Positions 14,199-53,931 of a stretch of 64,000 nt of DNA are shown here, one piece after another. This DNA is from Betaproteobacteria bacterium. Its GTDB lineage: Bacteria; Pseudomonadota; Gammaproteobacteria; Burkholderiales; Thiobacillaceae. The translations under genes and the position numbers were made by a program. Location of the stretch: contig JACRNB010000015.1 of assembly GCA_016219425.1 (NCBI GenBank), forward strand, positions 124,001 through 188,000, in the 5' to 3' direction. The notes beneath the pieces are model-generated. The model was given only the letters and a program-made list of their open reading frames with translations, ran no database searches and had not been told where the DNA came from. The stretch's first letter is position 1. Every line of letters starts with the position of its first letter.

Positions 14199-14617
14199 TT
14201 GTCGGCGGGGCTCTGGGTCACGAAGGTGATGCGCGGATAGCCCGCGCGGCGCGCCGCGTCCATCACCCGGACCACGGACTGATGGGTGGCATGGGCGTCG
14301 GCGGAGATCACCACCATGGGGTCTTTCTGCGCGCCTGCCGCCTCTTTCAGCGCCCCGGCCAGGCCGTCCACGCCGATATTGCCCAGGGAGCGCCGGCTCA
14401 CCGAGTAATTGCCCTGCGCGTCCACGTTGATGTCGATCTGGCTGGGCGTGTCCTTGGCGGAGTCGCCCTTGGCCTCGGGCAGGTTGATCTGGAGTTCGGA
14501 AAAGCGCGCGTAGGTGGTGGTGACCATGAGGAAGATCAGGATCACCAGCAACACGTCGATGAGGGGGATCAGGTTGATTTCCGGCTCATCGCGCCGTGCG
14601 CCGCGGGCGAAGTTCAT
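14195..14617 (-). CDS. exbD: Biopolymer transport protein ExbD/TolR
   Basis: 140 residues: short cytoplasmic start, one transmembrane helix containing the functionally essential Asp (INLIPLIDVLLVILIFLMV), then a periplasmic domain ending [11 protein letters not shown]. With ExbB it forms the proton-driven energising complex. In this lpxK-linked context (exbB-exbD-lpxK) its real partner (TonB, Tol or lipid export) is uncertain. It overlaps both neighbours by 4 bp. Confidence 0.93.
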   Translation of the reverse strand: MNFARGARRDEPEINLIPLIDVLLVILIFLMVTTTYARFSELQINLPEAKGDSAKDTPSQIDINVDAQGNYSVSRRSLGNIGVDGLAGALKEAAGAQKDPMVVISADAHATHQSVVRVMDAARRAGYPRITFVTQSPADK

Positions 14618-15219
14618 TTGCGTTCGCCGTGCACGATTTCCACCAGCATCACCGCCTGCTGTTCCATTTCCACCAGGAAGGCGTCCACGCGGGCGCGGAA
14701 GAAGCGGTAGAAGATCAGGCTGGGGATGGCGACGATGAGGCCGAAGGCGGTGTTGTAGAGCGCCACCGAGATGCCGTGCGCCAGCACCGCCGGGTTGCCG
14801 CCGGTGGGGGACTGGGAACCGAAGATGTCCACCATGCCCACCACGGTGCCGAGCAGGCCCATGAGGGGGGCGACGGAGGCGATGGTGCCGAGGGAATTCA
14901 GATAGCGCTCCAGGTCGTGGGCTACCAGCCGACCGGCCTCTTCCAGGGATTCCTTCATTACCTCGCGCGTGGACTGCACGTTGCGCAGGCCGGTGGCCAG
15001 TACGCGTCCCAGAGGCGAGCCTTCCGCCAGGGCGCGCAGCACCTCCGGCGTGATGCCCTGTTTGCGCAGTTTCTCGACTGTCTGTTCCAGCAGACCCAGG
15101 GGGAGCACCTGGACTCGGCGCAAGGTGTAGAAGCGCTCGAACACGATGGCCAGGGCAAGAATGGAGGCGAGGATGATGGGCCAGATGGGCCAGCCGGCGG
15201 CTTCGATGAGGGCTAACAA
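14614..15219 (-). CDS. exbB: MotA/TolQ/ExbB proton channel family protein (TTG start)
   Basis: About 201 residues with three transmembrane helices and the ExbB signature: WPIWPIILASILALAIVFERFYTLRR, SVAPLMGLLGTVVGMVDIFGS and AHGISVALYNTAFGLIVAIPSLIFYRFF. No ATG lies near the conserved N-terminus. TTG at 15219 has AGGA eight bases upstream and gives LLALIEAAGWPIWPI, so I prefer it over the longer track ORF (15327), whose N-terminus overlaps the end of the next gene. Confidence 0.9.
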   Translation of the reverse strand: MLALIEAAGWPIWPIILASILALAIVFERFYTLRRVQVLPLGLLEQTVEKLRKQGITPEVLRALAEGSPLGRVLATGLRNVQSTREVMKESLEEAGRLVAHDLERYLNSLGTIASVAPLMGLLGTVVGMVDIFGSQSPTGGNPAVLAHGISVALYNTAFGLIVAIPSLIFYRFFRARVDAFLVEMEQQAVMLVEIVHGERK

Positions 15220-15304
15220 GAGCGTATTCCTGCTATGAGAATTGGCCGCTAATGTAGCCGCGCACCCCCGGAGGGGCAAGCCGCGCGGTTCGCCGGGGGC
15301 GCCG

Positions 15305-17494
15305 CTATCCGTTGCCTTCCTCCGCAATGGCGTTACGGCAAAGCAGTTGTTCGAACTCCAGCAACGGCAGCGGACGGCTGAACAGGTATCCCTGGTAGGC
15401 GTGGCAGCCGTGCCGTTCCAGAAACAGGCGTTGCTGCACGGTTTCCACGCCTTCTGCGATTACGTCCATTCCGAGGATGCGCCCCATGGAGACGATGGTC
15501 TGCACGATGGCGGCGTCATGGGGGTTGCTGGAGATGTCGTTGACGAAGGTGCGGTCGATCTTCAACTGGTCCAGCGGCAGGCGCTTGAGGTAGGACAGGG
15601 AGGAAAAACCGGTGCCGAAGTCGTCCATGGCAAAGCCGACGCCCAGGGTCTTCAGTTCATGCATCTTGGCGATGGTGTCGTTCACGTTGTCGATCACCAG
15701 GCTCTCGGTGAGTTCTATTTTCAGACGGGCTGCATCGGCCCCCGTATCGGCCAGAACCTGCCGAACCTCGCTGACGAATTCCGGCTGGCGGAACTGGCGC
15801 GCGCTCACATTCACCGCCAGGGTCAGGTGGCGCGTGGCCGGGTCTGCCGCCCAGACATGGATTTGGGTGCACGCCCGCGCCAGCACCCAGTGGCCGATCG
15901 ACAGAATCAGGCCGGTTTCCTCCGCCAGGGGGATGAAGAGATCGGGCGGGATGGTCCCGCGCTGGGGATGCATCCAGCGCAACAGCACCTCGGCGCCGAT
16001 GACCCGGTGCTGCTGGTCGATCTGGGCCTGAAAATGCAGGGACAACTGCCCCCGCTTCAGGGCCTTGCGCAACTCGCCCTCCAGGGCGATGCGTTCGTTC
16101 AGGGCGGCCTGCATGGCCGGGTCGAAGAAATGCAGGGTGTTGCGCCCGGCGTCCTTGGCCTCATACAGGGCCAGGTCCGCCTGCTTGAGCAGGGATTCCA
16201 CCGTATCGCCGCGGCCCCGGAACAGGGTAATGCCCAGGCTGGCGGTGCAGAAATACTCGCCGTTGGACAGTTCATAGGGCTGGGCCAGGGCCTCGCGCAG
16301 CTTCTCCCCCGCCAGCCGGGCTTGTGCGGTCGCCTCCATCGCCAGAGGGCTCAGATCCTCCAACACCGCCACGAACTCATCCCCGCCCAGGCGGGACACG
16401 GTATCGCCCTCCCGCACCGCGCTGTTCAGGCGCTGGGCCGCCAGCACCAGCAACTGGTCGCCAAAGTCGTGGCCACGGGTGTTGTTGAGGGTTCTGAAAT
16501 TGTCCAGGTCCAGGAACAGAAGCGCCCCGTGGCGACCATTGCGGGCGCTGCTTGCCAGGGCCTGGCCCAGGCGGTCATAGAGCAGGCGGCGGTTGGGCAG
16601 GCGGGTGAGGGAATCGTAGTAGGCCAGGCGATGGATCTCCGCCTCCGCCTCCTTGTTGTGGGTGATGTCGGAAAAGGCGCCGACGTAGTGGGTAATGCGT
16701 CCATCCGGCGCGCTTACGGCGCTGATGGTGAGCCACTCCGCGTACACCTTGCCGTTTTTGCGCCGGTTCCACATCTCGCCCTGCCAAAAGCCCGTCTGCT
16801 TCAGCTCCGACCACATGGCCTGATAGAACTCGGTGGAGTGGCGTCCCGAGCGCAGCAGGGCCGGCGTGTGGCCGATGGCCTCCGCCTCGCTGTACCCCGT
16901 CAGCCGGGTGAACGCCTGATTTACCCGCACGATCACGCCATTCGCGTCCGTCACCACCATGCCGGCATGGGATTCAAAGGAGATGGCGGCGATGCGCAAC
17001 TCCTCTTCTACGCGCCGATGGGCGCTCAGGTCGCCCACGTTCACCACGACCAGATCCGCGTCGCCCATGCGCAACGGCCCCAGGCCCACCTCCACCGGAA
17101 ATTCGGAGCCGTCGCGGCGCAGGCCCTGATAAGCGCCATCCCCCATGGCGCGGTGACGGGAACCTTGTGCGGCGTAGCGCTCCAGGCTGGCCGCATGTCC
17201 GGTGCGGAAACGCACGGGGATGAGGTCTTCCACGCCCCGGCCCGACAGCGCGCCGGTCTCGTAGCCGAACAGGCGTTCGGCGCTGGCGTTGGCCTGGAGG
17301 ATGCGTCCCTGCCGGTCTACCACCAGAAGGGCCGCAGGCGCGGCCTGCAATATGCGTTGCGCGCACCCCTCGCCGTCCTGCGCCCAGGCGGGGACGGGTT
17401 CAGACGGGAGTCTCATGGCCGACCGCGTTGGCGCAAGAGGCTGGCGTATCGTCTTTTTGGGGGTGCGAAGGGGGGTAGATCGGGTGGACGCCAT
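15305..17494 (-). CDS. PAS-PAS-GGDEF-EAL c-di-GMP signalling protein
   Basis: 729 residues: an N-terminal PAS (LLVVDRQGRILQANASAERLFGY), a second PAS with PAC (GMVVTDANGVIVRVNQAFTRLTGY), then a diguanylate cyclase domain with intact RLGGDEF and an RxxD inhibitory site (REGD) five residues before it. The EAL domain has EVLLRW, NVSARQF, IELTES, AMDDFGTG, LKIDR and VIAEGVET, so phosphodiesterase catalysis looks possible too. No membrane segment is visible; it should be a cytoplasmic sensor with both activities potentially intact. AGGAG precedes the ATG. It lies downstream of the ANTAR regulator, separated by a 196-bp leader. Confidence 0.94.
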   Translation of the reverse strand: MASTRSTPLRTPKKTIRQPLAPTRSAMRLPSEPVPAWAQDGEGCAQRILQAAPAALLVVDRQGRILQANASAERLFGYETGALSGRGVEDLIPVRFRTGHAASLERYAAQGSRHRAMGDGAYQGLRRDGSEFPVEVGLGPLRMGDADLVVVNVGDLSAHRRVEEELRIAAISFESHAGMVVTDANGVIVRVNQAFTRLTGYSEAEAIGHTPALLRSGRHSTEFYQAMWSELKQTGFWQGEMWNRRKNGKVYAEWLTISAVSAPDGRITHYVGAFSDITHNKEAEAEIHRLAYYDSLTRLPNRRLLYDRLGQALASSARNGRHGALLFLDLDNFRTLNNTRGHDFGDQLLVLAAQRLNSAVREGDTVSRLGGDEFVAVLEDLSPLAMEATAQARLAGEKLREALAQPYELSNGEYFCTASLGITLFRGRGDTVESLLKQADLALYEAKDAGRNTLHFFDPAMQAALNERIALEGELRKALKRGQLSLHFQAQIDQQHRVIGAEVLLRWMHPQRGTIPPDLFIPLAEETGLILSIGHWVLARACTQIHVWAADPATRHLTLAVNVSARQFRQPEFVSEVRQVLADTGADAARLKIELTESLVIDNVNDTIAKMHELKTLGVGFAMDDFGTGFSSLSYLKRLPLDQLKIDRTFVNDISSNPHDAAIVQTIVSMGRILGMDVIAEGVETVQQRLFLERHGCHAYQGYLFSRPLPLLEFEQLLCRNAIAEEGNG

Positions 17495-17690
17495 GTTCCG
17501 CTCCTGTCCTTCCGGGGACGCACGAACGGCATGCGGCGCAGGGAAGTTCCATCAAGCGGGACAGTTTCTTGGGCCCCGGAGTTACCGCCCCGGCAGGGCC
17601 GGGAGGGTCAAAAACAGACCGAATTCTATTGCAGCCGGGATGCAAGCTGCGGGGGACTGATCGTCCCGTCCGCATGGGGCGGGAGCTTAT
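17495..17690 (-). other. Structured 196-bp leader between the ANTAR regulator and the GGDEF-EAL gene
   Basis: This is the only sizeable gap in an otherwise overlapping minus-strand set. On the minus strand it contains several small inverted repeats: GGGAC-GATCA-GTCCC, GCAGC...GCTGC, TTGCA...TGCAA, GGTCTGTTTTTGACC and CCCGGC-CCT-GCCGGG. No protein-coding frame looks real. Because ANTAR proteins act on RNA hairpins, this is a candidate target, but I could not identify a canonical two-hexaloop motif or a clear terminator. Confidence 0.35.
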
Positions 17691-18314
17691 TTATTGACGC
17701 GTATTGACGCGGCCTGAGCCGGTTTCGACAGGCGGTGCGTCTTCCACCATCTCGCGCGCCAGATCCTCCAGGCGGCGGCAATGGTCGCGCGCCTGTTTGC
17801 GCAGGGTCTCGAAGGCGTCGCCCCGGTTCAGGCCGCTGCGCGCCATCACCAAGCCGACGGCGGCGCCGATCACGCGGTTGCTGCTCAGGGCGTCCTTCAG
17901 CCCCTGATTCAGTGCAGCCAGTTCGCTGATCTCCGCCGCCCGCGCCAGGGCGGTGCGCAAGGCGGGCAGGAGGGAAGGCACGCTGAGCGGTTTGACCAGA
18001 TAGCCCAGCGCCCCCGCGTCCACCGCCTGCTGCACCAGATCCCCATCGTCGTAGGCGGTCAGGAACAGGAAGGGAACCGCCGTCTCGTCGCGCAGACGCC
18101 GCGCCAGTTCCAGGCCATCCAGGCCCGGCATGCGGATATCCAGCAGCGCCAGGTCGATCGCCTCCCGCTGGCACAGTTCCAGGGCGCGCACCCCGTCCTG
18201 CGCCACCAGTACAGCGTATCCGGCCTCACGCAGGCCCTCGGCCAGGGTGAACAACACCACCCGGTCATCATCGGCCAACAGCAGGGTCTGCACGGGGTCG
18301 CCTGCCATGGTCAT
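17691..18314 (-). CDS. ANTAR-domain response regulator (putative RNA-binding antiterminator)
   Basis: 207 residues. The receiver domain shows the acidic pair ADDD, the phospho-Asp in LALLDIRMPGLDGLELA, the FLTAYDD region and the lysine in YLVKPL. The C-terminus (SELAALNQGLKDALSSNRVIGAAVGLVMARSGLNRGDAFETLRKQARD) matches the ANTAR three-helix domain of AmiR/NasR-type antiterminators. The start overlaps the histidine kinase stop (ATGA), so kinase and regulator are a cognate pair. A one-domain output binding RNA rather than DNA is expected from the family. Confidence 0.93.
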   Translation of the reverse strand: MTMAGDPVQTLLLADDDRVVLFTLAEGLREAGYAVLVAQDGVRALELCQREAIDLALLDIRMPGLDGLELARRLRDETAVPFLFLTAYDDGDLVQQAVDAGALGYLVKPLSVPSLLPALRTALARAAEISELAALNQGLKDALSSNRVIGAAVGLVMARSGLNRGDAFETLRKQARDHCRRLEDLAREMVEDAPPVETGSGRVNTRQ

Positions 18315-19837
18315 CCCGCCGCGTCCGCCGCCAGCGGTTGCACCACCGGCCAGGACAGCGTCAGTTCGGTGAGCAGGTTGCCATCCCCGTCGCGGGCGTG
18401 GTCGAGCGCCGCGCCCGCTTCCGGCAGCAACGCCCGCACCAGATTCAGGCCGGTGTTCAACCCCTTGCCGTTCGCCAGATTGAAGTCCGGCGTCCCGTCC
18501 ACCGCATTGCGGATGACCAGGCGCGCGCTCCGGCCATCGGCATGCAGGCTGACCTGCACCGGCATGGCAGCCGGCGGAGAGTGCTTCACCGCGTTGAGCA
18601 CCAGTTCATTGACGATGAGGGCCACGGCCACCGCCTCGTCCCGATGGATCTGCACCGGCGTGAAGGCGCTGCCCGCCGCCTCGATCCGCCATACCACCGG
18701 ACGCAGCGACTGCGCCTCCACGTTCATGCAGATCTGCGCGGCGGTATCGCAAAAGCGGATGGTCTCCGCCGGACTGGAGGCTTGCAGGCCGTGGGCCACG
18801 GCGATGGCGTGCACCTGACCGATGGCCGCCTGCAGGCGCGGGTCCAGTTCCAGAAAACGGCCCAGTTCCCGCTGCAACAGACCGGCCACGCTTTGCAGGG
18901 AGTTCTTGATGCGGTGATGCACCTCCCGCACCAGGGTGTCGCGTTGCCGTTTGAGCGCGTCGAGACGCTCCGCCTCGGCTCGCTTGTGGTCGGTGATGTC
19001 GCGGGCGATGCCAACCAGGCCCGTGACCTGACCCGAGCCGTTGCGTAGCGGGGTGCGTACGGTGAGGCGGGTGCGTTTGTCAGCCCCGCTGCCCACCTCA
19101 TCCTCGGCGTGCAGGGTCTGTCCCTGGGCCATGGTCTGCTCATCCAGCGCCATGAAGGACCGGGCCAGCGGGACATCCCCGAAGATGCCTAGCGCATCGA
19201 GCCCCATCAAATCTTCCAGCGCCAGGTCAGGACGCCCCCGGAATTCCCGCGCCAGGCGGAGCGAGATGGGATTGAAATAGCGCAGGCGATGCGCCCGATC
19301 CAGCACAAAGATCGCGTCCGGGCTGATCTCGGCGATGGTGCGCAGCAGCCCTTCCTGTTCCGCCAACTCCCGCTCCGCCCTGGTTGCACGCGAGGTGTCG
19401 GTCAGGGCCAGGCGAATCTCCAACCTCCGTTCCATCGACCTGAACAGCAAACCGTCGAGACGGACAGGGCAGGGGCTGGCGTCGGCCCGCAGCAGGGTCA
19501 GCTCGCATTGTTCGCGTTCGCCTTGGCGCAGAAGTCGGGAAAAACAGATTTGCCAGCGGTCCCGATCCGCTTCGGCCAGCAGGGTGGCGAAACGGCGTCC
19601 CAGCAGAAGCGCCCGCTCCACCCCCAACAAGGCCGCGCAGGTGAGGTTGGCGGATGTAATCAGGCCCTCCGGCCCCAGGCTGAGGTAGCCCACCGGGGCG
19701 AATTCGTAGAGATCCACATAGCGGTCGCGCGATTCTTCCAGGTCGATCTGGGCCTGGCGCAGGGCCTCGTTCTGCATCTCCAGCTCGATCTGATGCACCT
19801 GGAGCTCGTGCAGGAGCGACTCGGCGCTGCGCGTCAC
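18311..19837 (-). CDS. PAS-domain sensor histidine kinase (HisKA_2 type)
   Basis: 508 residues, no transmembrane segments, so a cytoplasmic sensor. N-terminal helical region LLHELQVHQIELEMQNEALR leads into a PAS domain (LYEFAPVGYLSLGPEGLITSANL), a second PAS with PAC (ISPDAIFVLDRAHRLRYFN ... VGIARDITDHKRAEAE), the HisKA_2 phosphoacceptor VREVHHRIKNSLQSVAGLL, and an ATPase domain with VNELVLNAVKHS and a G box near GKGLNTGLNLV. HisKA_2 kinases commonly pair with ANTAR regulators, as here. It overlaps both neighbours by 4 bp. Confidence 0.93.
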   Translation of the reverse strand: MTRSAESLLHELQVHQIELEMQNEALRQAQIDLEESRDRYVDLYEFAPVGYLSLGPEGLITSANLTCAALLGVERALLLGRRFATLLAEADRDRWQICFSRLLRQGEREQCELTLLRADASPCPVRLDGLLFRSMERRLEIRLALTDTSRATRAERELAEQEGLLRTIAEISPDAIFVLDRAHRLRYFNPISLRLAREFRGRPDLALEDLMGLDALGIFGDVPLARSFMALDEQTMAQGQTLHAEDEVGSGADKRTRLTVRTPLRNGSGQVTGLVGIARDITDHKRAEAERLDALKRQRDTLVREVHHRIKNSLQSVAGLLQRELGRFLELDPRLQAAIGQVHAIAVAHGLQASSPAETIRFCDTAAQICMNVEAQSLRPVVWRIEAAGSAFTPVQIHRDEAVAVALIVNELVLNAVKHSPPAAMPVQVSLHADGRSARLVIRNAVDGTPDFNLANGKGLNTGLNLVRALLPEAGAALDHARDGDGNLLTELTLSWPVVQPLAADAAG

Positions 19838-21510
19838 TCCGGCAACCTCATGTCGTTGCCCTGCACCACCTTGATGCAGGCCGCCACCACATCGGCGTCG
19901 TACTGCGCGCCGCTGCCGCGTTCGACCTCCGCCAGGGCCGCCGCCACCCCCAGGCCGGCGCGGTAGGGGCGGTGGGAAGACATGGCCTCCACCACGTCGG
20001 CCACGGCCAGGATGCGCGCCTCCAGCAGGATGTCGCTCCCCTTGAGCCCGAAGGGATAGCCGCTGCCGTCCAGGCGCTCGTGGTGCTGCACGATCATCTG
20101 CGCCATGGGCCAGGGGAATTCGATGTCGGCGACGATGCGCCGCCCGGTCTCCGGGTGCTCCCGGATCAACAGCATCTCCACCGGGGTCAAGCTTCCCGGC
20201 TTGGCCAGGATCTCCGCCGGGACGCTGATCTTGCCGATGTCGTGGATCATGCCGCCGAACTTCAAACCTTCCTGCTGCGCCGCACTCAGACCCAGTTCCC
20301 CGGCGATGGCCATGGCCAGCCCGGTCACGCGCTGCTGATGGCCGGAGGTATAGGGGTCGCGCATCTCCAGGGTGCGGGCCATGGCCGTCACCGTGCTCTG
20401 CATGGCTTGTCCGAAGTGGAGCTGGTAGCGGTCGCGCTCCCGGCTGGTGCGCAGGGCGGCGATGCCGAAGGCCAGATCGGCGGCCAGCTCCTCCATCAGA
20501 GCCACCTCGGCGGCGTCGAAATTGTCGGTCTGGGACGAGAAGATGGTGAGCGCGCCCAGAACCTGGCCGTCATTGAGCAGGGGCAGGGACAGGGCCGCCG
20601 CCACGCCCATCCGGCTCAGTTCATCAAAACGGCATTCCGGCGTGCTGTTGAGCTGATTGCAGACCTGGGTTTGGCGGGTGTCCAGGGCGGCGTTCACCAG
20701 GCAATGGCGCAGGTGGTCCGGGTCATGGTCCATGGCGAGGTGGACTTGATAGGCCGCCTTGTCGCCATGCCAGGCGACCGGCGTGTTGGCGCCCTTCGGG
20801 GCGGCCTCGGCCACCCAGGCCAGCAGGTAGCCGCCAATCTCGACGATGTCGCGGCAGACGTCTTGCAGCAGGTCGGGCTCGCTGCGCGCACGCACCAGGT
20901 CTTCGTTGCAGGCGCTGACGGTGCGCAGGATGCGGTTGAGGTGGCGAATCTGGGCCTCGCGCCGCAACTGGTCGCTGATGTCGGTGAAGGCCAGGCGCAG
21001 GCCGCTGGGCGCTCCGTCCTGCGTCAGCCGCTGGCAATCCAGTCGCGCCCGGAACGGGGCGTTGCCGCCGCGTTGCAGCGTGATTTCGTCATGCCGACGC
21101 TCTCCCTCGGTTTGGGTGGTGTGGATCAGACGTCGCCAGAGAGCGCGGTCTTCCGGCGCGACGCAAAAGTCGAAGCGGCGCTGGAGCAACTGCCGGCGCT
21201 CCACCCCCAGCAGGGCCGCGCCGGTGAGGTTGACCCCGGTAATCAGGCCGTCGTGATTGAGGGTGAGGTAGCCCACCGGGGCGAATTCGTAGAGATCCAC
21301 ATAGCGGTCGCGCGATTCTTCCAGGGCGACCTGGGCCTGGCGCAGGGCCTCGTTCTGCATTTCGAGTTCGATCTGGTGCACTTGAAGTTCGTGCAGAAGG
21401 GTTTCCGGATCGCTTTCGCGCGCGGGTGGCGGCGTGGCGGCCAGGAGCTGCTCCGCCAATTCCCGCAGGGGGGAATTGCGCCGTTCCGTACCGTCCCATG
21501 GTTGTTTCAT
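19834..21510 (-). CDS. PAS-GAF-HD-GYP putative c-di-GMP phosphodiesterase
   Basis: 558 residues: the same LLHELQVHQIELEMQNEALR helix and PAS (LYEFAPVGYLTLNHDG) as the downstream kinase, then a GAF-like domain (RVLRTVSACNEDLVRA-like start, VAAALSLPLLNDGQVLGALTIFS), then an HD-GYP domain with HDIGK and HHERLDGSGYPFG. It should hydrolyse c-di-GMP. GAGG precedes the ATG. It is the first gene of the overlapping HD-GYP/kinase/ANTAR set, and its promoter region is occupied by REP and tandem repeats. Confidence 0.92.
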   Translation of the reverse strand: MKQPWDGTERRNSPLRELAEQLLAATPPPARESDPETLLHELQVHQIELEMQNEALRQAQVALEESRDRYVDLYEFAPVGYLTLNHDGLITGVNLTGAALLGVERRQLLQRRFDFCVAPEDRALWRRLIHTTQTEGERRHDEITLQRGGNAPFRARLDCQRLTQDGAPSGLRLAFTDISDQLRREAQIRHLNRILRTVSACNEDLVRARSEPDLLQDVCRDIVEIGGYLLAWVAEAAPKGANTPVAWHGDKAAYQVHLAMDHDPDHLRHCLVNAALDTRQTQVCNQLNSTPECRFDELSRMGVAAALSLPLLNDGQVLGALTIFSSQTDNFDAAEVALMEELAADLAFGIAALRTSRERDRYQLHFGQAMQSTVTAMARTLEMRDPYTSGHQQRVTGLAMAIAGELGLSAAQQEGLKFGGMIHDIGKISVPAEILAKPGSLTPVEMLLIREHPETGRRIVADIEFPWPMAQMIVQHHERLDGSGYPFGLKGSDILLEARILAVADVVEAMSSHRPYRAGLGVAAALAEVERGSGAQYDADVVAACIKVVQGNDMRLPE

Positions 21511-21522
21511 CCTGAAACCTCG

Positions 21523-21574
21523 GTAGGTGCGAATTCATTCGCACGGATTTCAGTGCGAATGAATTCGCACCTAC
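21523..21574. repeat. REP-like palindrome pair, family A (GTGCGAATGAATTCGCAC)
   Basis: GTAGGTGCGAATTCATTCGC at 21523-21544 faces its reverse complement at 21553-21574, giving a large inverted repeat. The same unit recurs at 30460-30648 and 53874-53931. Confidence 0.9.
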
Positions 21575-21689
21575 AGGCCACTCGCACCTACAGGCCACTC
21601 GCACCTACAGGCCACTCGCACCTACAGGCCACTCGCACCTACAGGCCACTCGCACCTACAGGCCACTCGCACCTACAGGCCACTCGCAC
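21571..21689. repeat. 17-bp tandem repeat, 7 copies
   Basis: CTACAGGCCACTCGCAC is repeated seven times head to tail with no visible variation and ends before the GCATTGAATC sequence. The unit appears to be made from the CGCACCTACA end of the adjoining family A palindrome plus GGCCACT, suggesting local amplification from it. Confidence 0.92.
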
Positions 21690-21869
21690 CGCATTGAATC
21701 GTAATGAACGCATCCGACATCGGCGGTTTTCAGGTGTTGCTTCTTTGCCGAAGCCCGGTGGACGGAGCTTGTTTTGAAGATACCTCAATGCCCATGTCAT
21801 TCAAGCGGAAACACGAGCGTCATGAGCCTTATCGGCCCGGCCTGGGGGAACTTGAAGCGAGGTCTCCGC
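21690..21869. other. Non-coding remainder upstream of the HD-GYP gene
   Basis: About 180 bp between the tandem array and the end of the CheB/CheR gene. Small ORFs here (21704-21940, 21774-21956) show no domain or coding bias and overlap the CheB/CheR gene. The segment is less GC-rich than its surroundings. I see no convincing promoter or RNA gene. Confidence 0.5.
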
Positions 21870-24737
21870 CTAGTCCGCCGCCTCTTCCAGCGCCAGCAGG
21901 ATCAGGGGCGCGGCGCTGCCGACCACACGGCGGGCGTTGAGGAGGAGGCGCCGTGAACCCGCACCCGGCGCGCGCTGTTCCATGGCGTAGTTCTCGAAGC
22001 TCTGGTCGCGCGGCAGCACCGTCTCCAGCAGCTCCCGCAGGGCCGGCTGGTCCCAGGCGCGGTCGCCCAATTCGTACAGGGCGCGCCCCACGGTGTCGCC
22101 GGGCGCAACCTGGAAGCGCTGGTAGAAGGACTGGCTGGCGCTGATTACGCGCAGCTCGCCATCCAGCACCAGCAGGGGTTCCCGCACGGTGTTGACGATG
22201 GCCTCCGCCAGTTCCCGCGCCTCCCGCACCGCGGTCTCGGCGGCCACCCGTTTGCTGATGTCGGTGAAGGTGAACACCACGCCCTCGATCACGTTGTCCA
22301 GGGTGCGGTAGGGCTGGATGCGGGCCAGATACCAGGCGCCGCTGGCGGTGCGCACCTCGCGTTCGCGCGGGGCCAGGGTGTCCAGCACCGTTTGCGCCTC
22401 GGTCAGCAGGTCTTCGCCTTCCAGGTCCGACTTGATGTCGCCCAGGGGCCGGCCCACATCGCTGGCGACCAGGCGGTAGACCCGCGTCGCTTCGCGCGTG
22501 AAGCGGCGGATGACCAGGTGTTCGTCCAGGAACACGGTGCCGACGTTGATGTTGTCGAGCAGGTTCTTCATGTCGTTCTGCATCCCGGCCAGTTGCTCGA
22601 TCTTGGCCTGGAGTTCGGCGTTGACCGTGATCAGTTCCTCGTTCACCGATTGCAGCTCTTCCTTGGAGGTCTCCAGTTCTTCATTGGTGGACTGCAATTC
22701 CTCGTTGGTGGATTGCAGCTCTTCGTTGGTGGACTTGAGTTCTTCGTTGGAGGCCTGTTGTTCCTCGATGGTGGCTTGCAGGTTCTCGCGGGTGTAGGCC
22801 AGGTCGCGCTCCAGTTCTTCCACTCGCCGCACCGCGACGGAGGCGCTGCTCCGTTTGCCCCGCGCGGGCGGGGCGGGGATGGTGGCGTGGGGCAGATCCT
22901 GAAAACTCACCAGCAGCAGGCCCTGGCCGCCTTCCGGGTCCGGCAGGGGGCGCACGCTGAGGCTGACGGGCTGGAAGTCGCCATTGGTCTTTACCAGCAC
23001 CTCCCGGTTCAGGCTGGCGCCGCCTTCCGCTCCCTGCAGGGCGGCGCGCAGTTCCAGTTGCAGGCCTTCGCGCGCCATGTCGATGAGGTTGAGGCTGGCC
23101 TGGCCCGGCGCGGGGCGCAGGTATTTGCCGGTCTCGCCATGCACGAACAGGAGATTGCCCTTGGCGTCCGTCACCACCGAGGCGGGGGCGTAAGACTGCA
23201 ACAGCATGCGCCGGGTGAGTTCGGCGAAATTGGTCTCACGGGTCTTCTTCACGACTTCCTCCGGGGTCTTGTTGCCGCCCTGCGCGGCCCAGGACAGGCC
23301 CCCGGCCATCACCGCGCGGGTGGAGGCGGCGGAGGCGATGGCGCGGTAGAACTTCCATTTGCGGTTGAGGGCGGCGAACAGGTCCGGGTGGTTGCCGGTG
23401 CTCTCCGAGGGGGAGAGGAAGAGCACGCCGCCGGGTTTGAGGGCGTAGTGGAAGGCGGGCAGCAGGCGGTTCTGCAACTCCGGTTCCAGATAGATCATCA
23501 GGTTGCGGCAGGCGAGCAGGTCCAGGCGGGTGAAGGGCGGGTCTTTGATCACGTTCTGCAGGGCGAACACCACCATCTCCCGCACCTCCTTCTTCACCCG
23601 GTAGCCGGCGTCTTCCTTGGTGAAGAAGCGGCGCAGGCGCTCGGGCGAGACATCGGCGGCGATGTTGGGCGGGTAGAGCCCGGCGCGGGCCAGGGCGATG
23701 GCGTCCTCGTCCAGGTCGGTGGCGTAGATCTGCACCTTGAATTCGCGCTTGTGCTCGTCCATCCACTCGCGCAGCAGGATGGCGATGGAATAGGCCTCCT
23801 CGCCGCTGGCGCAGCCCGCCACCCAGACCCGGAAGGCGTAGCCCTCGGGCTTGTCCATGCATAGCAGGGGCAGGATGTCCTGCCTGAGGGTGGCGAAGGC
23901 CTCGGTGTCGCGGAAGAAGCTGGTGACGTTGATCAGCAGTTCCTTGAACAGGATCTGGGCCTCGCCCGGATGTTCCTTCAGATAGCGGGCGTAGATCTCG
24001 TAGTCGTCCAGGTCATGCTGGTTCATGCGCCGCTCGATGCGGCGACCGATGGTGCTCTTCTTGTATTGGGAGAAGTCGTGGCCGGTGGCGGCGCGCAACA
24101 GCATGAGGATGCGGTTGAGGCCGCCGGCGGGCAGGGCGGTCTTGGGCGGCAGCAGGGGTGCGCTCAGTTGCGGCAGGGCCGCCGGCATCTGGTCCGGCGG
24201 CAATACGCGGGTGGCGTAGCCGGCCTGGATGGCGCTGGCGGGCATGCCGTCGTACTTGGCCGTGACCGGCTCCTGCACCAGGGTGACGCCTCCGGCCCCG
24301 AGGATGGCGCGCAGACCCAGGGTGCCGTCCGTGCCGGTGCCGGAGAGGAGGATGCCGATGGCGCGTTCGCCCTGGTCTTCCGCCAGAGAGCGCAAAAAGG
24401 CGTCGATGGGCATGCGTTGCCCGCGCGGGACGTCCGGCACGGAGAGTTGCAGCACGCCGTGGAAGATCGCCATGTCGCGGTTGGGCGGCAGAACATGGAC
24501 ATGGTTGGGCCGCACCGGGGTCTGGTCCCGCACCTCCACCACCGGCAGGCTGGTGCTGCGTTGCAGGATCTCGGTGAGCAGGCTGGCGTGGTCCGGGTCC
24601 AGGTGCGGCACCAGGACGAAGGCCATGCCGGTATCCGCCGGCAAGGCGCGGAAGAACTGCTCGAAGGCCTCCAGCCCCCCGGCGGAAGCGCCCAGCGCGA
24701 CGATGGGGAAGGGGGCGGGGGGTGTGGAGGGGGTCAT
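21870..24737 (-). CDS. CheB-CheR-PAS hybrid chemotaxis/signalling protein
   Basis: 955 residues from MTPSTPPAPFPIVALGASAGG; AGGA sits six bases before the ATG, so the track start at 24800 is too long. Domains: CheB methylesterase (Ser in GASAGG, HVLPPN, Asp in GTGTDGT); CheR N-terminal helices and CheR methyltransferase (NVTSFFRD, WVAGCASGEEAYSIAI, NLMIYLEPELQ); a first PAS-like region; a long coiled coil with tandem LQSTNEELQ/STNEELETSKEEL repeats near residues 680-740; then PAS domains (FLDEHLVIRRFTREATRVYRL and a C-terminal one). No histidine kinase domain follows. Such hybrids often act with two-component or c-di-GMP partners rather than classical chemotaxis; the adjacent genes fit that. 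Confidence 0.93.
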   Translation of the reverse strand: MTPSTPPAPFPIVALGASAGGLEAFEQFFRALPADTGMAFVLVPHLDPDHASLLTEILQRSTSLPVVEVRDQTPVRPNHVHVLPPNRDMAIFHGVLQLSVPDVPRGQRMPIDAFLRSLAEDQGERAIGILLSGTGTDGTLGLRAILGAGGVTLVQEPVTAKYDGMPASAIQAGYATRVLPPDQMPAALPQLSAPLLPPKTALPAGGLNRILMLLRAATGHDFSQYKKSTIGRRIERRMNQHDLDDYEIYARYLKEHPGEAQILFKELLINVTSFFRDTEAFATLRQDILPLLCMDKPEGYAFRVWVAGCASGEEAYSIAILLREWMDEHKREFKVQIYATDLDEDAIALARAGLYPPNIAADVSPERLRRFFTKEDAGYRVKKEVREMVVFALQNVIKDPPFTRLDLLACRNLMIYLEPELQNRLLPAFHYALKPGGVLFLSPSESTGNHPDLFAALNRKWKFYRAIASAASTRAVMAGGLSWAAQGGNKTPEEVVKKTRETNFAELTRRMLLQSYAPASVVTDAKGNLLFVHGETGKYLRPAPGQASLNLIDMAREGLQLELRAALQGAEGGASLNREVLVKTNGDFQPVSLSVRPLPDPEGGQGLLLVSFQDLPHATIPAPPARGKRSSASVAVRRVEELERDLAYTRENLQATIEEQQASNEELKSTNEELQSTNEELQSTNEELETSKEELQSVNEELITVNAELQAKIEQLAGMQNDMKNLLDNINVGTVFLDEHLVIRRFTREATRVYRLVASDVGRPLGDIKSDLEGEDLLTEAQTVLDTLAPREREVRTASGAWYLARIQPYRTLDNVIEGVVFTFTDISKRVAAETAVREARELAEAIVNTVREPLLVLDGELRVISASQSFYQRFQVAPGDTVGRALYELGDRAWDQPALRELLETVLPRDQSFENYAMEQRAPGAGSRRLLLNARRVVGSAAPLILLALEEAAD

Positions 24738-24854
24738 GGGGGTTCCTGGTGGGTGTTTGCATGCTACGTGGCAGGCATAGGCTGGTCTATGAAGCGCCAT
24801 GAATTGGGGGGAGCTAAAGCGGCTTCAACCCGTTTCTCCCGGTTCGCACGAAAT

Positions 24855-24918
24855 CAATGGAATATTTCAATTCCATTGAAAATCTATTGTATATAAAGTA
24901 CTTTCGCGTTTTGCGAAA
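24855..24918. promoter_or_regulatory. AT-rich palindromic promoter/operator region of the wHTH-nucleotidyltransferase pair
   Basis: CAATGGAA and TTCCATTG are 8-bp inverted arms with an 8-bp spacer (24855-24878), followed by TATATAAAG (candidate -10) and a second palindrome TTTCGCGTTTTGCGAAA (24902-24918). The AT-richness is striking in this GC-rich window. The arrangement fits autoregulation by the winged-helix protein encoded 30 bp downstream. Confidence 0.55.
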
Positions 24919-24948
24919 CACGAAATGTTGTTCTTTTAACCCTGTCTC

Positions 24949-25482
24949 ATGCGCCGCCCCGTCAATCGTCAACCTACTCTCAAGTCCCAGGACTTTTATG
25001 TGCTGCTGGCGCTGCTGGCGCGTCGCGGCGAGGTATTGACGTATCCGGGCCTGGCCGCCTTCGCCGGGCTCTCCATGTCCGAGGTGCACGGCGCTTTGAA
25101 ACGGGCCGAGTTGGCGCGGTTGCTGGCATTCGTGGACGGGCAGCCGCGCATCATCACCCCCGCATTCAAGGAGTTCCTGTTGCATGGCGCCCGCTATGCA
25201 TTTCCCGCTGCACGGGGGACGATGGCGGGCGGAGTTCCGACGGCCTATGCCGCCGCCCCGCTCAACACGCTGATCGCGCCTTCTGCTGACCCGCCTCCCG
25301 TGTGGCCGTACGCCGAGGGCAGCGTGCGCGGCATTGCCCTGACGCCGCTCTATCCGTCAGCGCCGGCAGCGGCTTTGCGCAGCCCGGCCTTGTACGAAAA
25401 CCTGGCGTTGTTCGATGCCTTGCGCATGGGCAACGTGCGCGAGCGCAATCTGGCCGAAAAGTTGTTCGAGGAGCGGTTGTGA
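24949..25482 (+). CDS. Winged-helix DNA-binding protein, putative type IV antitoxin-like
   Basis: 177 residues. The first ~60 form a MarR-like winged helix-turn-helix (DFYVLLALLARRGEVLTYPGLAAFAGLSMSEVHGALKRAELARLL); the rest is Pro/Ala-rich and ends with a helical YENLALFDALRMGNVRERNLAEKLFEERL. No Shine-Dalgarno is obvious before the ATG, possibly a leaderless or near-leaderless start. It overlaps the nucleotidyltransferase downstream by GTGA. In AbiEi/AbiEii systems the wHTH antitoxin precedes and represses the nucleotidyltransferase toxin; the architecture is analogous, but I cannot place this protein in the AbiEi family with certainty. Confidence 0.75.
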   Translation: MRRPVNRQPTLKSQDFYVLLALLARRGEVLTYPGLAAFAGLSMSEVHGALKRAELARLLAFVDGQPRIITPAFKEFLLHGARYAFPAARGTMAGGVPTAYAAAPLNTLIAPSADPPPVWPYAEGSVRGIALTPLYPSAPAAALRSPALYENLALFDALRMGNVRERNLAEKLFEERL

Positions 25483-26189
25483 ATCCGCTGGACCCGAATG
25501 TTCAGTTGGTGGAAGTGGTGGCGCGGGCGCTGGGCGAGTTGTGCGACGAACTGGTGTTGGTGGGCGGGTGTGCGGCGGGCCTGTTATGCACCTCGCCCCA
25601 GGCGCCGCCGCCCCGTGTGACCTACGACGTGGACGTCATCGCCGAGGTGGCCGCCTTGTCCGGCTACCACGCCCTGGAGAAACAGTTCGCGTTGCGCGGG
25701 TTTGCCAGGGATATGTCGCCGGACGCACCCATCTGCCGGTGGCGCATCGGTCATGTGGAAGTCGATCTGATGCCGAGTGACGAACGCATCCTCGGGTTCT
25801 CGAACCGCTGGTACGCAGCAGCAATTGCCACGGCAACGGAGATGCTGTTACCCAGCGGTACGCGGATTCGACTGATTGCGGCGCCAGCCTTCCTGGCCAC
25901 CAAATTCGAGGCATTTACGACGCGGGGCGGCAGTGACTTGCTGTCCAGCCATGATTTCGAAGACATCATCAATGTGTTGGATGGACGCCCTGGCATCGAG
26001 CAGGAAGTGGCTGTCTCGGGTATGGACCTTGCCGCTTATCTGGCGGCAAGTTTCCAGAACATCCTGCAACACCCGGACTTCGAGAACACGCTGCCAGGAT
26101 TGGTTGCCTACGACAATCTGTATGAATCCCGTTTACAGGCGGTACGCCAACGTATCGTCGCCATCGCCGCCATTGATCTGCCAAGGTAG
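25479..26189 (+). CDS. Nucleotidyltransferase-fold protein (AbiEii/DUF6036-like), putative toxin
   Basis: 236 residues from a GTG overlapping the upstream stop (GTGA); the track start at 25302 is upstream shadow. The polymerase-beta nucleotidyltransferase core is visible: LVLVGGCAAGLL, then TYDVDVIAEV (DxD metal pair), then the third Asp in GHVEVDLMPSD. RLIAAPAFLATKFEAFTTRGGSDLLSSHDFEDIINVL matches the segment seen in AbiEii-like proteins (KFEA...D..DI). All catalytic acids appear intact. The partner gene and operator suggest a regulated toxin or modifying enzyme; the function itself is inferred. Confidence 0.75.
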   Translation: MNPLDPNVQLVEVVARALGELCDELVLVGGCAAGLLCTSPQAPPPRVTYDVDVIAEVAALSGYHALEKQFALRGFARDMSPDAPICRWRIGHVEVDLMPSDERILGFSNRWYAAAIATATEMLLPSGTRIRLIAAPAFLATKFEAFTTRGGSDLLSSHDFEDIINVLDGRPGIEQEVAVSGMDLAAYLAASFQNILQHPDFENTLPGLVAYDNLYESRLQAVRQRIVAIAAIDLPR

Positions 26190-26264
26190 CTGCGAAGGTG
26201 CAGAAATCAGGGCTGATATACTGCCGCGCCCGCATCGCCACCCCCTCATCCCGCTCCCAACTCC

Positions 26265-27632
26265 ATGATTCGTCGGTTCATTCGGAAGGTCTTCGGCAAG
26301 AAAGCCGCTCCCGGCCCCCGCATCCTCGCCCAGGACGCCCACGGCATCCGCCGCGATCTGATCCATCCCTGCGCCCTCAAGACCTGTCGCACCCTGTATG
26401 ACGCGGGTTACGCCGCCTTTGTGGTGGGCGGCGCGGTGCGCGACCTGTTGCTGGGGCGTGAGCCGAAGGATTTCGACGTCGCCACCGACGCTACGCCGGA
26501 CGAGATTCGCCGCCTGTTCCGGCGCTCGCGCGTGATCGGTCGCCGCTTCCAGATCGTCCACGTCTACTGCGGCGCGGACACCATCGAGGTCACCACCTTC
26601 CGCGCCGGCGCGCCCAGCGCCGAGGCGGATGAGGACGACGCCGACCACGTCACCGGCGAGGGCGGCATGCTGTTGCGCGACAACGTGTTCGGCAATCAGG
26701 AAGAGGATGCGGCGCGCCGCGACTTCACCGTCAACGCCCTCTATTACGACCCGGAAAACGAAGAGGTGTGGGATCTGCACGGCGGCGTGGAAGACGCCAA
26801 GCGCAAGGTGCTGCGCATGATCGGCGACCCGGAGCAGCGGTACCGCGAAGACCCCGTGCGCATGCTGCGCGCCGCGCGTTTCGCCGCCAAGCTGGAGTTC
26901 CACATCGACCCCGCCACGCGCGCGCCCATCGCCTGCCTGGCCCCCATGCTGGCGCACATCCCCACCGCGCGCCTGTTCGACGAGATGATGAAGCTGCTGC
27001 TCTCCGGCCATGCCGAGCGGGGTGTGCGCCAGTTGCGCGCCGAGGGCCTGCATCACGGCATCCTGCCCATGCTGGACACGGTGCTGGATGACCCGGCGCG
27101 GCAGAAATTCCTGCACCACGCCCTGCACGACACCGACCTGCGTGTGCGCCAGGGCCACTCCGCCTCCCCCGCCTTCATGCTCGCCTGCCTGCTCTGGTTC
27201 GACTTCCAGGCCGAGTTCAGCCGCAACAAGGAACGCGGTCAGCACCTGCAATCGGCCCTGTTCGATGCCATGGACACGGTGCTGGAGCGTCAGCGTGACG
27301 TACTCGCCTTCCCGCGCCGCTTCGACGGCACGATCAAGGAGATCTGGGGCATGCAGGGGCGCCTGGAACAGCGCTCCGGCAATCGCCCGTTCCGCCTCAT
27401 GCAGCATCCGCGTTTCCGCGCCGCCTACGATTTCCTGCTGATCCGCGCCGAGTCGGGCGACGCCCCGGCGGAACTGGCGGAGTGGTGGACCCGCTTCCAG
27501 GACGCGGAGGATTCGGAACGCGAAGCCATGTTGATCCAGCCCGGCGCCGGCGAGGGGGCCAAGCGCAAGTGCCGCCGCAAGCCGCACAAGTCGGAGGATG
27601 GCGCGGGGCCGGTTGAGGTCATCCTTGGCTGA
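26265..27632 (+). CDS. pcnB: Polynucleotide adenylyltransferase (poly(A) polymerase I)
   Basis: 455 residues. Nucleotidyltransferase motif VVGGAVRDLLLGREPKDFDVATDATP near residue 50, the RRDFTVNALYYD motif and the RNA-binding helical domain (EDPVRMLRAARFAAKL) identify the tRNA-nucleotidyltransferase superfamily. The basic N-terminus (RRFIRKVFGKK) and the basic tail (AKRKCRRKPHKSE) point to PcnB rather than Cca. It polyadenylates RNA for decay. pcnB-folK is the usual betaproteobacterial order. Confidence 0.94.
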   Translation: MIRRFIRKVFGKKAAPGPRILAQDAHGIRRDLIHPCALKTCRTLYDAGYAAFVVGGAVRDLLLGREPKDFDVATDATPDEIRRLFRRSRVIGRRFQIVHVYCGADTIEVTTFRAGAPSAEADEDDADHVTGEGGMLLRDNVFGNQEEDAARRDFTVNALYYDPENEEVWDLHGGVEDAKRKVLRMIGDPEQRYREDPVRMLRAARFAAKLEFHIDPATRAPIACLAPMLAHIPTARLFDEMMKLLLSGHAERGVRQLRAEGLHHGILPMLDTVLDDPARQKFLHHALHDTDLRVRQGHSASPAFMLACLLWFDFQAEFSRNKERGQHLQSALFDAMDTVLERQRDVLAFPRRFDGTIKEIWGMQGRLEQRSGNRPFRLMQHPRFRAAYDFLLIRAESGDAPAELAEWWTRFQDAEDSEREAMLIQPGAGEGAKRKCRRKPHKSEDGAGPVEVILG

Positions 27633-29626: not shown

Positions 29627-30469
29627 ATGCAACTCCTCCACACCGTCGCCGACCTCCGCGCCGCCCTCAAGGGCGAGAGCGAGACCGCCTTCGTGCCCAC
29701 CATGGGCAACCTGCACACGGGCCACATCGCCCTGGTGCAACAGGCGCGCCGCCAGGGCCGCCCGGTGGTGGCCAGCCTCTTCGTCAACCCGCTGCAATTC
29801 GGCGCGGGCGAGGATTTCGAGCGCTATCCCCGCACCCTGGTGGCGGATTGCGCCCAACTCGAACCCGCCGGCTGCGACCTCGTGTTTGCCCCGGATGTGC
29901 GGGAGATGTACCCGGAGCCCCAGACCTTCACGGTCATCCCCCCCCTGGCGGACGAGTTGTGCGGCGCGCACCGGCCCGGCCACTTCGCGGGCGTGGCGAC
30001 GGTGGTGCTCAAGCTGTTCAACATGGTGCAGCCCCGTTATGCCGTGTTCGGCAAGAAGGACTACCAGCAGTTGTTCCTCCTCAAGGGGCTGGTGCGCCAG
30101 TTCAATCTGCCCATCACGGTGCTGGAAGGCGAGACGGTGCGGGCGGAGGATGGTCTGGCGCTGTCCTCCCGCAATGGTTTTCTGAGCCCGGAGGAGCGCG
30201 CCGAAGCGCCGCGTCTGTACCGGCTGCTGAAGCAGATTTGTGCACGCCTGGGTGCGGGGGAGACCGACTTCGCCGCACTGGAGGCCGTGGCTGCACAGGA
30301 ACTGGCGCACCACGGCTGGGAGGTGGATTACGTCAGCATCCGCTCCCGCCGCACCTTGCTGGCCCCCGCCGCCGGGGAGCGCGACTGGGTGGCGCTGGCC
30401 GCAGCCCGGCTGGGGCGGACGCGGTTGATCGACAACCTGGAGGCGGGGGCGGCGTCGGTGTGCGAATGA
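29627..30469 (+). CDS. panC: Pantoate--beta-alanine ligase
   Basis: 280 residues. ATP-dependent condensation of pantoate with beta-alanine. Signatures: [20 protein letters not shown] (HIGH-like), [53 protein letters not shown] and [11 protein letters not shown] (KMSKS-like). The last residues AASVCE and the stop TGA are read from the first copy of the family A palindrome (GTGCGAATGA), so the repeat forms the C-terminus. Confidence 0.96.
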
Positions 30470-30648
30470 ATTCGCACCTACAGCCGCTTTCGTCGTGGAT
30501 GTGCGAATGAATTCGCACCTACAACTGCTTTCGTCGTGGATGTGCGAATGAATTCGCACCTACAACGGTCCCGTAGGTGCGAATTCATTCGCACCCCCGC
30601 CAGCAGGGCCGCGCAGACATAACGATGTAGGTGCGAATTCATTCGCAC
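30460..30648. repeat. Cluster of five REP-like palindromes, family A
   Basis: Three direct copies of GTGCGAATGAATTCGCAC (plus CTACA) begin at 30460, 30501 and 30542; the last two share an extra GCTTTCGTCGTGGAT spacer, making a ~41-bp period. Two inverted copies lie at 30573-30594 and 30626-30648. The first copy contains the panC stop codon. Confidence 0.93.
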
Positions 30649-53873: not shown

Positions 53874-53931
53874 GTAGGTGCGAATTCATTCGCACAACCA
53901 AAGCGTCAAGTGCGAATGAATTCGCACCTAC
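53874..53931. repeat. REP-like inverted pair, family A
   Basis: GTAGGTGCGAATTCATTCGC (53874) faces GTGCGAATGAATTCGCAC plus CTAC (to 53931), 14 bp apart. Same unit as at 21523 and 30460. Confidence 0.93.

Follow-up and report, generated by a model that had tools for sequence, protein, structure and literature searches.

The closest described relative of the gene pair studied here is PDC-M21, which has the status of a candidate phage-defence pair in PADLOC. We found there no description of an operator, of a kinship with MenT toxins or of a variant with a PP2C-type phosphatase. A literature search on PDC-M21 returned no paper, and no toxicity, binding or phage test of a PDC-M21-type pair was found in the literature. 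The type IV toxin-antitoxin (TA) system AbiEi-AbiEii is bicistronic and combines an antitoxin gene in first position, a helix-turn-helix antitoxin, promoter repeats and a nucleotidyltransferase (NTase) toxin; the AbiEi operator consists of two 23-bp inverted repeats (PMC7319586). The toxins of the MenAT1 and MenAT3 systems of Mycobacterium tuberculosis are autophosphorylated under antitoxin control, on T39 of MenT1 and S78 of MenT3, and are thereby blocked (PMC11375011). Their partners are the small protein MenA1 and the AbiEi-like MenA3. TA genes also occur within the type I restriction-modification (R-M) operon of the RptR-controlled R-M/DarTG island (PMC12255303). The repressor of this island, the 79-aa helical dimer RptR, reads short tandem repeats of 9 bp with TAGCTA.

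In the window, by which we mean the whole 64,000-nt stretch of betaproteobacterial DNA that was analysed, a gene for a winged-helix (wHTH) protein is followed by an NTase gene (Table 1). Both proteins match PDC-M21 over most of their length and in the same order, the wHTH protein as PDC-M21A (E 9.1e-36, residues 34-177) and the NTase as PDC-M21B (E 2e-65, residues 7-231), and the adjacency of the A and B matches places the pair in PDC-M21. Pfam, NCBIfam and PHROGs gave nothing above threshold for either protein. The preliminary description could not assign the wHTH protein to a known antitoxin family. The pair is already catalogued as an untested phage-defence candidate, and what is new is a shared, unusual repeat-built switch ahead of it in several phyla and a plasmid version with a PP2C gene. 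We consider it likely that the pair is a mobile, self-repressed NTase TA-type module of the PDC-M21 kind, which would work in a MenAT-like way with an antitoxin family of its own. This reading draws on what the sequences show about the gene pair, the fold, the invariant residues, the operator architecture, mobility, and the R-M and plasmid contexts; from these we infer DNA binding, toxicity, substrate, phosphorylation and a role of the module in defence.

Table 1. Features of the locus, with positions in the window
Feature	Position	Strand	Remarks
Winged-helix (wHTH) protein gene	24949-25482	+	ATG start, 177 aa, PDC-M21A family; proposed antitoxin and autorepressor
Nucleotidyltransferase (NTase) gene	25479-26189	+	GTG start, 236 aa, PDC-M21B family, MenT/AbiEii fold; proposed toxin
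GTGA start/stop overlap	25479-25482	+	4 nt, couples the wHTH and NTase genes (sequence)
Codons T48-Y-D50-V-D52	25620-25634	+	Catalytic DxD and Thr at the MenT1 T39 / MenT3 S78 position (alignment; PMC11375011)
Palindrome 1, TCAATGGAAT-6 nt-ATTCCATTGA	24854-24879	.	10-nt perfect arms; may be a further operator or a site in the -35 region; lacks the heptad pattern
Possible -10 element TATATAAA	24890-24897	+	Weak inference from sequence
Candidate heptad operator CTTTCGCGTTTTGCGAAACACGAAAT	24901-24926	.	26 bp; half-site occurring twice in direct orientation at a 7-bp period, then the mirror image of both; better than 60/60 shuffles
Block between exbB and pcnB, ~10.9 kb	15289-26205	.	Borders approximate; synteny with genus relatives
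exbB, flank of block	14614-15327	-	
pcnB, flank of block	26265-27632	+	

The GTGA overlap of the two genes had been pointed out before and is borne out by their 4 shared nucleotides. The wHTH gene lies upstream of the NTase gene in 126 of 130 NTase loci, a few of which are duplicates, and a 4-nt overlap is seen more often than any other spacing (84 of the 126 loci with both genes). One locus (L095:7785-9455) has two wHTH and two NTase matches, the second NTase match being short.

A Foldseek search with the AlphaFold NTase model (pLDDT 96.5) gives MenT1 (E 3.7e-6) and MenT3/TglT (1e-4) as the best PDB matches, and JHP933 and ANT(2'')-Ia are found as well. A profile of NTase homologues also reaches MenT1 in the PDB. 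The AbiEii Pfam model weakly matches 35 of 58 homologues (E <= 0.1, best 4.8e-7); the window NTase itself has no Pfam match and falls below the curated AbiEii cut-off. The window protein has the fold, the GG and DxD motifs, the third Asp and the catalytic Lys of the MenT/AbiEii NTase toxin superfamily (DUF1814-like). The GG, DxD and third Asp, earlier described as intact, are indeed present as GG29-30, D50-V51-D52 and D96. Across 127 aligned NTases, G29, G30, R46, D50, D52, D96, K142, R149, D159 and D162 are invariant, and position 48, two residues ahead of the first catalytic Asp, is Thr in 126 sequences and Ser in one. In a profile alignment, the R-x-T48-x-D50 stretch places T48 on the Thr of the MenT1 motif RFTRDVD, so that T48 and D50 correspond to T39 and D41 of MenT1. 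The window NTase and the MenAT1/MenAT3 toxins thus have in common the NTase fold and an R-x-T/S-x-D-x-D motif with the phospho-acceptor Ser/Thr, at a sequence identity of ~17-21%. An invariant T48 at this phospho-site suggests type VII-like control rather than the type IV label given to the pair initially; that label is not established. At moderate whole-chain TM-scores to MenT1 (0.43-0.65), the fold does not reveal to what the NTase would transfer nucleotides.

The wHTH protein (model pLDDT 95.4) consists of a winged helix at about residues 11-68, with the recognition helix at 43-55, and a conserved C-terminal domain. Its resemblance to solved structures is limited to the DNA-binding half, and the Pfam families of its members indicate a likeness to MarR-type domains. 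The middle of the protein had been taken for a distinct Pro/Ala-rich segment, but residues ~70-177 turn out to be a conserved domain of the protein's own family, in which W119, G128, P133, R159 and R164 are invariant or near-invariant and G95, T98 and others are, with most of these, near-invariant across the family. Conservation of this domain is at least equal to that of the DNA-binding part. A kinship with AbiEi was rejected on the basis of Pfam, hhalign and structure searches: no AbiEi Pfam family matched the window wHTH protein or was among the 25 families most often matched by 55 members, and hhalign against an AbiEi protein gave 0.2% probability.

The pair lies behind an AT-rich promoter, as first noted, with a GC content of 0.50-0.55 against ~0.65-0.70 around it. 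The two palindromes reported there are real. Palindrome 1 has arms of 10 nt, longer than originally given, which were matched in 0.3% of dinucleotide shuffles (P 0.003). It was rejected as a heptad site, being an ordinary palindrome without heptad repeat. Palindrome 2 (TTTCGC/GCGAAA) lies within a larger site of 26 bp at 24901-24926, the architecture of which is conserved family-wide. A scan of the window promoter for a consensus sigma-70 promoter gave no match. The 26-bp site lies 48 to 23 nt ahead of the wHTH ATG and is the sole site within three mismatches in the whole genome, which fits autoregulation alone.

In relatives, the geometry of this candidate operator is constant and its letters are variable, with half-sites at 7 bp that are then mirrored, for example TATTCGCTATTCG facing CGAATAGCGAATA. 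A fixed family-wide motif was rejected accordingly, the letters ranging over TATTCG, TTTCG, TATATG, TGTCC, GTTTC and ATTCC at a constant 7-bp geometry. A 5-mer repeat at lag 7 occurs in 98 of 112 non-redundant promoters, against 13.2 expected from shuffles, and all other lags from 5 to 24 give at most 18. In 95 of the 112 promoters, at most one of 60 shuffles reaches the composite operator score. A site scoring at least 18 is present in 92 of 115 promoters and in 2 of 115 shuffled ones, and 22 promoters have two sites. Among loci not used for the discovery, the heptad operator is also found in members from Cyanobacteriota, Deinococcota, Bacteroidota and Acidobacteriota, which brings the total to five phyla; scores in further genomes range from 16 to 23. 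Some plasmid members, including several Acinetobacter copies and one Pseudomonas copy, score poorly. When operator letters were compared with the proteins, the top column of either protein was M43 at the start of the recognition helix (1.80). The best NTase column reaches 1.53, so that much of the co-variation reflects shared descent, and the link between operator and recognition helix is suggestive only.

In the proposed mechanism, free NTase would transfer nucleotides onto RNA (most likely tRNA ends) or protein and thereby stop growth. The wHTH protein would silence the NTase and repress the operon, probably by binding as paired dimers to the mirrored heptads close to the start of transcription, and its loss would both free the toxin and raise expression. 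The invariance of T48 and its place beside the catalytic aspartates suggest that silencing may also proceed via antitoxin-induced autophosphorylation, as in MenT1 and MenT3. The module likely serves in abortive defence against phages or stabilises the DNA that carries it. The comparison links a PADLOC candidate that is still untested with a toxin mechanism that has been studied in detail, and the operator can be recognised from DNA alone across phyla.

Canonical AbiE, the reading of the preliminary description, shares with the window pair the antitoxin-first order, the gene overlap, the promoter repeats and the NTase superfamily (PMC3985639, PMC7319586). This part of the comparison stands, as does the NTase-toxin fold. 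However, neither Pfam nor hhalign revealed AbiEi homology, the operator is built of 7-bp mirrored repeats instead of two 23-bp inverted repeats, the NTase is below the AbiEii threshold, and the antitoxin families differ, which makes a canonical type IV system highly improbable. The window wHTH partner is likewise unlike MenA1 and MenA3, and both the protein and its site are unlike RptR and its repeats. A less remote, though still unlikely, alternative is that the NTase is a regulated, non-toxic enzyme that usefully modifies RNA, a protein or a small molecule, in the way that ANT(2'')-Ia modifies aminoglycosides, and that the wHTH protein is a repressor only. The presence of ANT(2'')-Ia among the structural matches, the MarR-like character of the wHTH domain and the common occurrence of a repressor upstream of an enzyme would be in keeping with this. 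Yet the MenT toxins are the better structural matches, the repressor is almost never found apart from the NTase, small plasmids and R-M neighbourhoods are settings typical of conflict systems, and the conservation of the wHTH C-terminal domain fits binding of a partner protein.

The module might also be a defence accessory to type I R-M or other neighbours, with the wHTH protein silencing an NTase that is active only once the neighbouring system is triggered. Directly 3' of the NTase gene, hsdR is found in ~6 and hsdM in 4 of 68 loci, counts that rest on simple gene calls, and in several cases these genes overlap or abut the NTase stop, as such a role might predict; one copy on a plasmid has BREX genes next to it. 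Most copies, including the window pair, are without an adjacent R-M gene, and neighbours differ by locus, many of them being ordinary metabolic genes. We regard an accessory role as somewhat less probable still than a non-toxic enzyme, and retain the self-repressed TA-type module as the preferred reading. At L053, L063, L065, L088, L105, L110 and L112, the pair immediately precedes hsdM or hsdR of a type I R-M system, with overlapping or abutting frames in several.

A gene for a PP2C-type phosphatase lies 3' of the NTase gene, and often overlaps it, on plasmids of Acinetobacter, Pseudomonas, Rhizobium, Agrobacterium and others as well as on some chromosomes. Loci of this three-gene form, mostly on plasmids, include L043, L044, L045, L049, L154-L157, L165, L166, L168 and L169; the BREX genes mentioned above adjoin L156, and traA is next to L154. 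No PP2C gene was found in the window or in close relatives. In an alignment of eight of the phosphatases, the PP2C motifs appear intact; the phosphatase frame is broken in the Azotobacter copy (L048). Many of the PP2C-carrying loci have TGTCC-type operator half-sites in common, and the three-gene form requires three changes on the NTase tree, against 9.8 when shuffled. SidD, an enzyme of the PP2C fold, undoes nucleotide transfer to protein. As a tentative hypothesis, to which we give well below even credence and which as regards the phosphatase concerns the relatives and not the window pair, a single reversible phospho-switch could underlie both the module and the related three-gene forms on plasmids. 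The wHTH protein would drive T48 self-phosphorylation and so silence the NTase, PP2C would strip the phosphate in response to a signal and so make the toxin active again (or undo nucleotide transfer to protein in the manner of SidD), and the repressor would read a mirrored heptad operator with drifting letters and fixed geometry. The PP2C subfamily, in which a phosphatase accompanies an NTase of this kind, offers a natural test of the reversibility of NTase-toxin autophosphorylation; the word 'phosphatase' is absent from the text of the MenT autophosphorylation paper (PMC11375011).

The distribution of the pair in relatives is patchy, as the mobility of such a module would predict. The NTase is present in 10 of 61 genomes (the window genome and its relatives; 8 of these 10 are among the 51 good genomes), in 16 of 74 genomes of one family, in 34 of 369 of the class and in 29 of 399 of the phylum, and host classes are intermixed on the NTase tree. 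Order-wide vertical conservation, which had been named as evidence against a TA module, was looked for and not seen, and a vertically inherited housekeeping enzyme was rejected because of the patchiness and the synteny. Broken NTase copies, with two frames or stops, occur in three relatives (G006, G035, G013), where assembly error is possible. Relatives were found in 115 plasmid records, two of about 8 kb, in none of the phage records and, three in number only, in viral contigs, which makes the direct phage link thin; a phage-borne origin of the pair was rejected on the same counts.

The pair had been thought to occupy an insertion spot between a signalling island and a housekeeping operon. 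It does lie in a strain-specific insert, but the insert is larger than the pair and the neighbouring signalling genes are inside the same block. This block is absent from the exbB-pcnB site in 20 of 20 genus relatives with readable pcnB, in all of which the neighbour of pcnB is a homologue of the window at 14.1-15.3 kb (exbB); in L140, both flanks are joined. By inspection, the block contains five signalling genes on the - strand (15305-24800), for a PAS-GGDEF-EAL protein, an ANTAR-like regulator, a sensor kinase, a PAS-HD-GYP protein and a CheB-CheR-PAS protein. Two 229-nt stretches (19588-19816 and 21171-21399) are 84% identical and represent a segment common to two adjacent sensor genes. 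A near-palindrome, GTGCGAATGAATTCGCAC, occurs in nine copies where 0.01 are expected, often as facing pairs (21527-21570, 30460-30648, 53878-53927), and resembles a dispersed repeat element. It is adjoined by a tandem array of ~7 copies of the 17-bp unit TCGCACCTACAGGCCAC (21548-21707).
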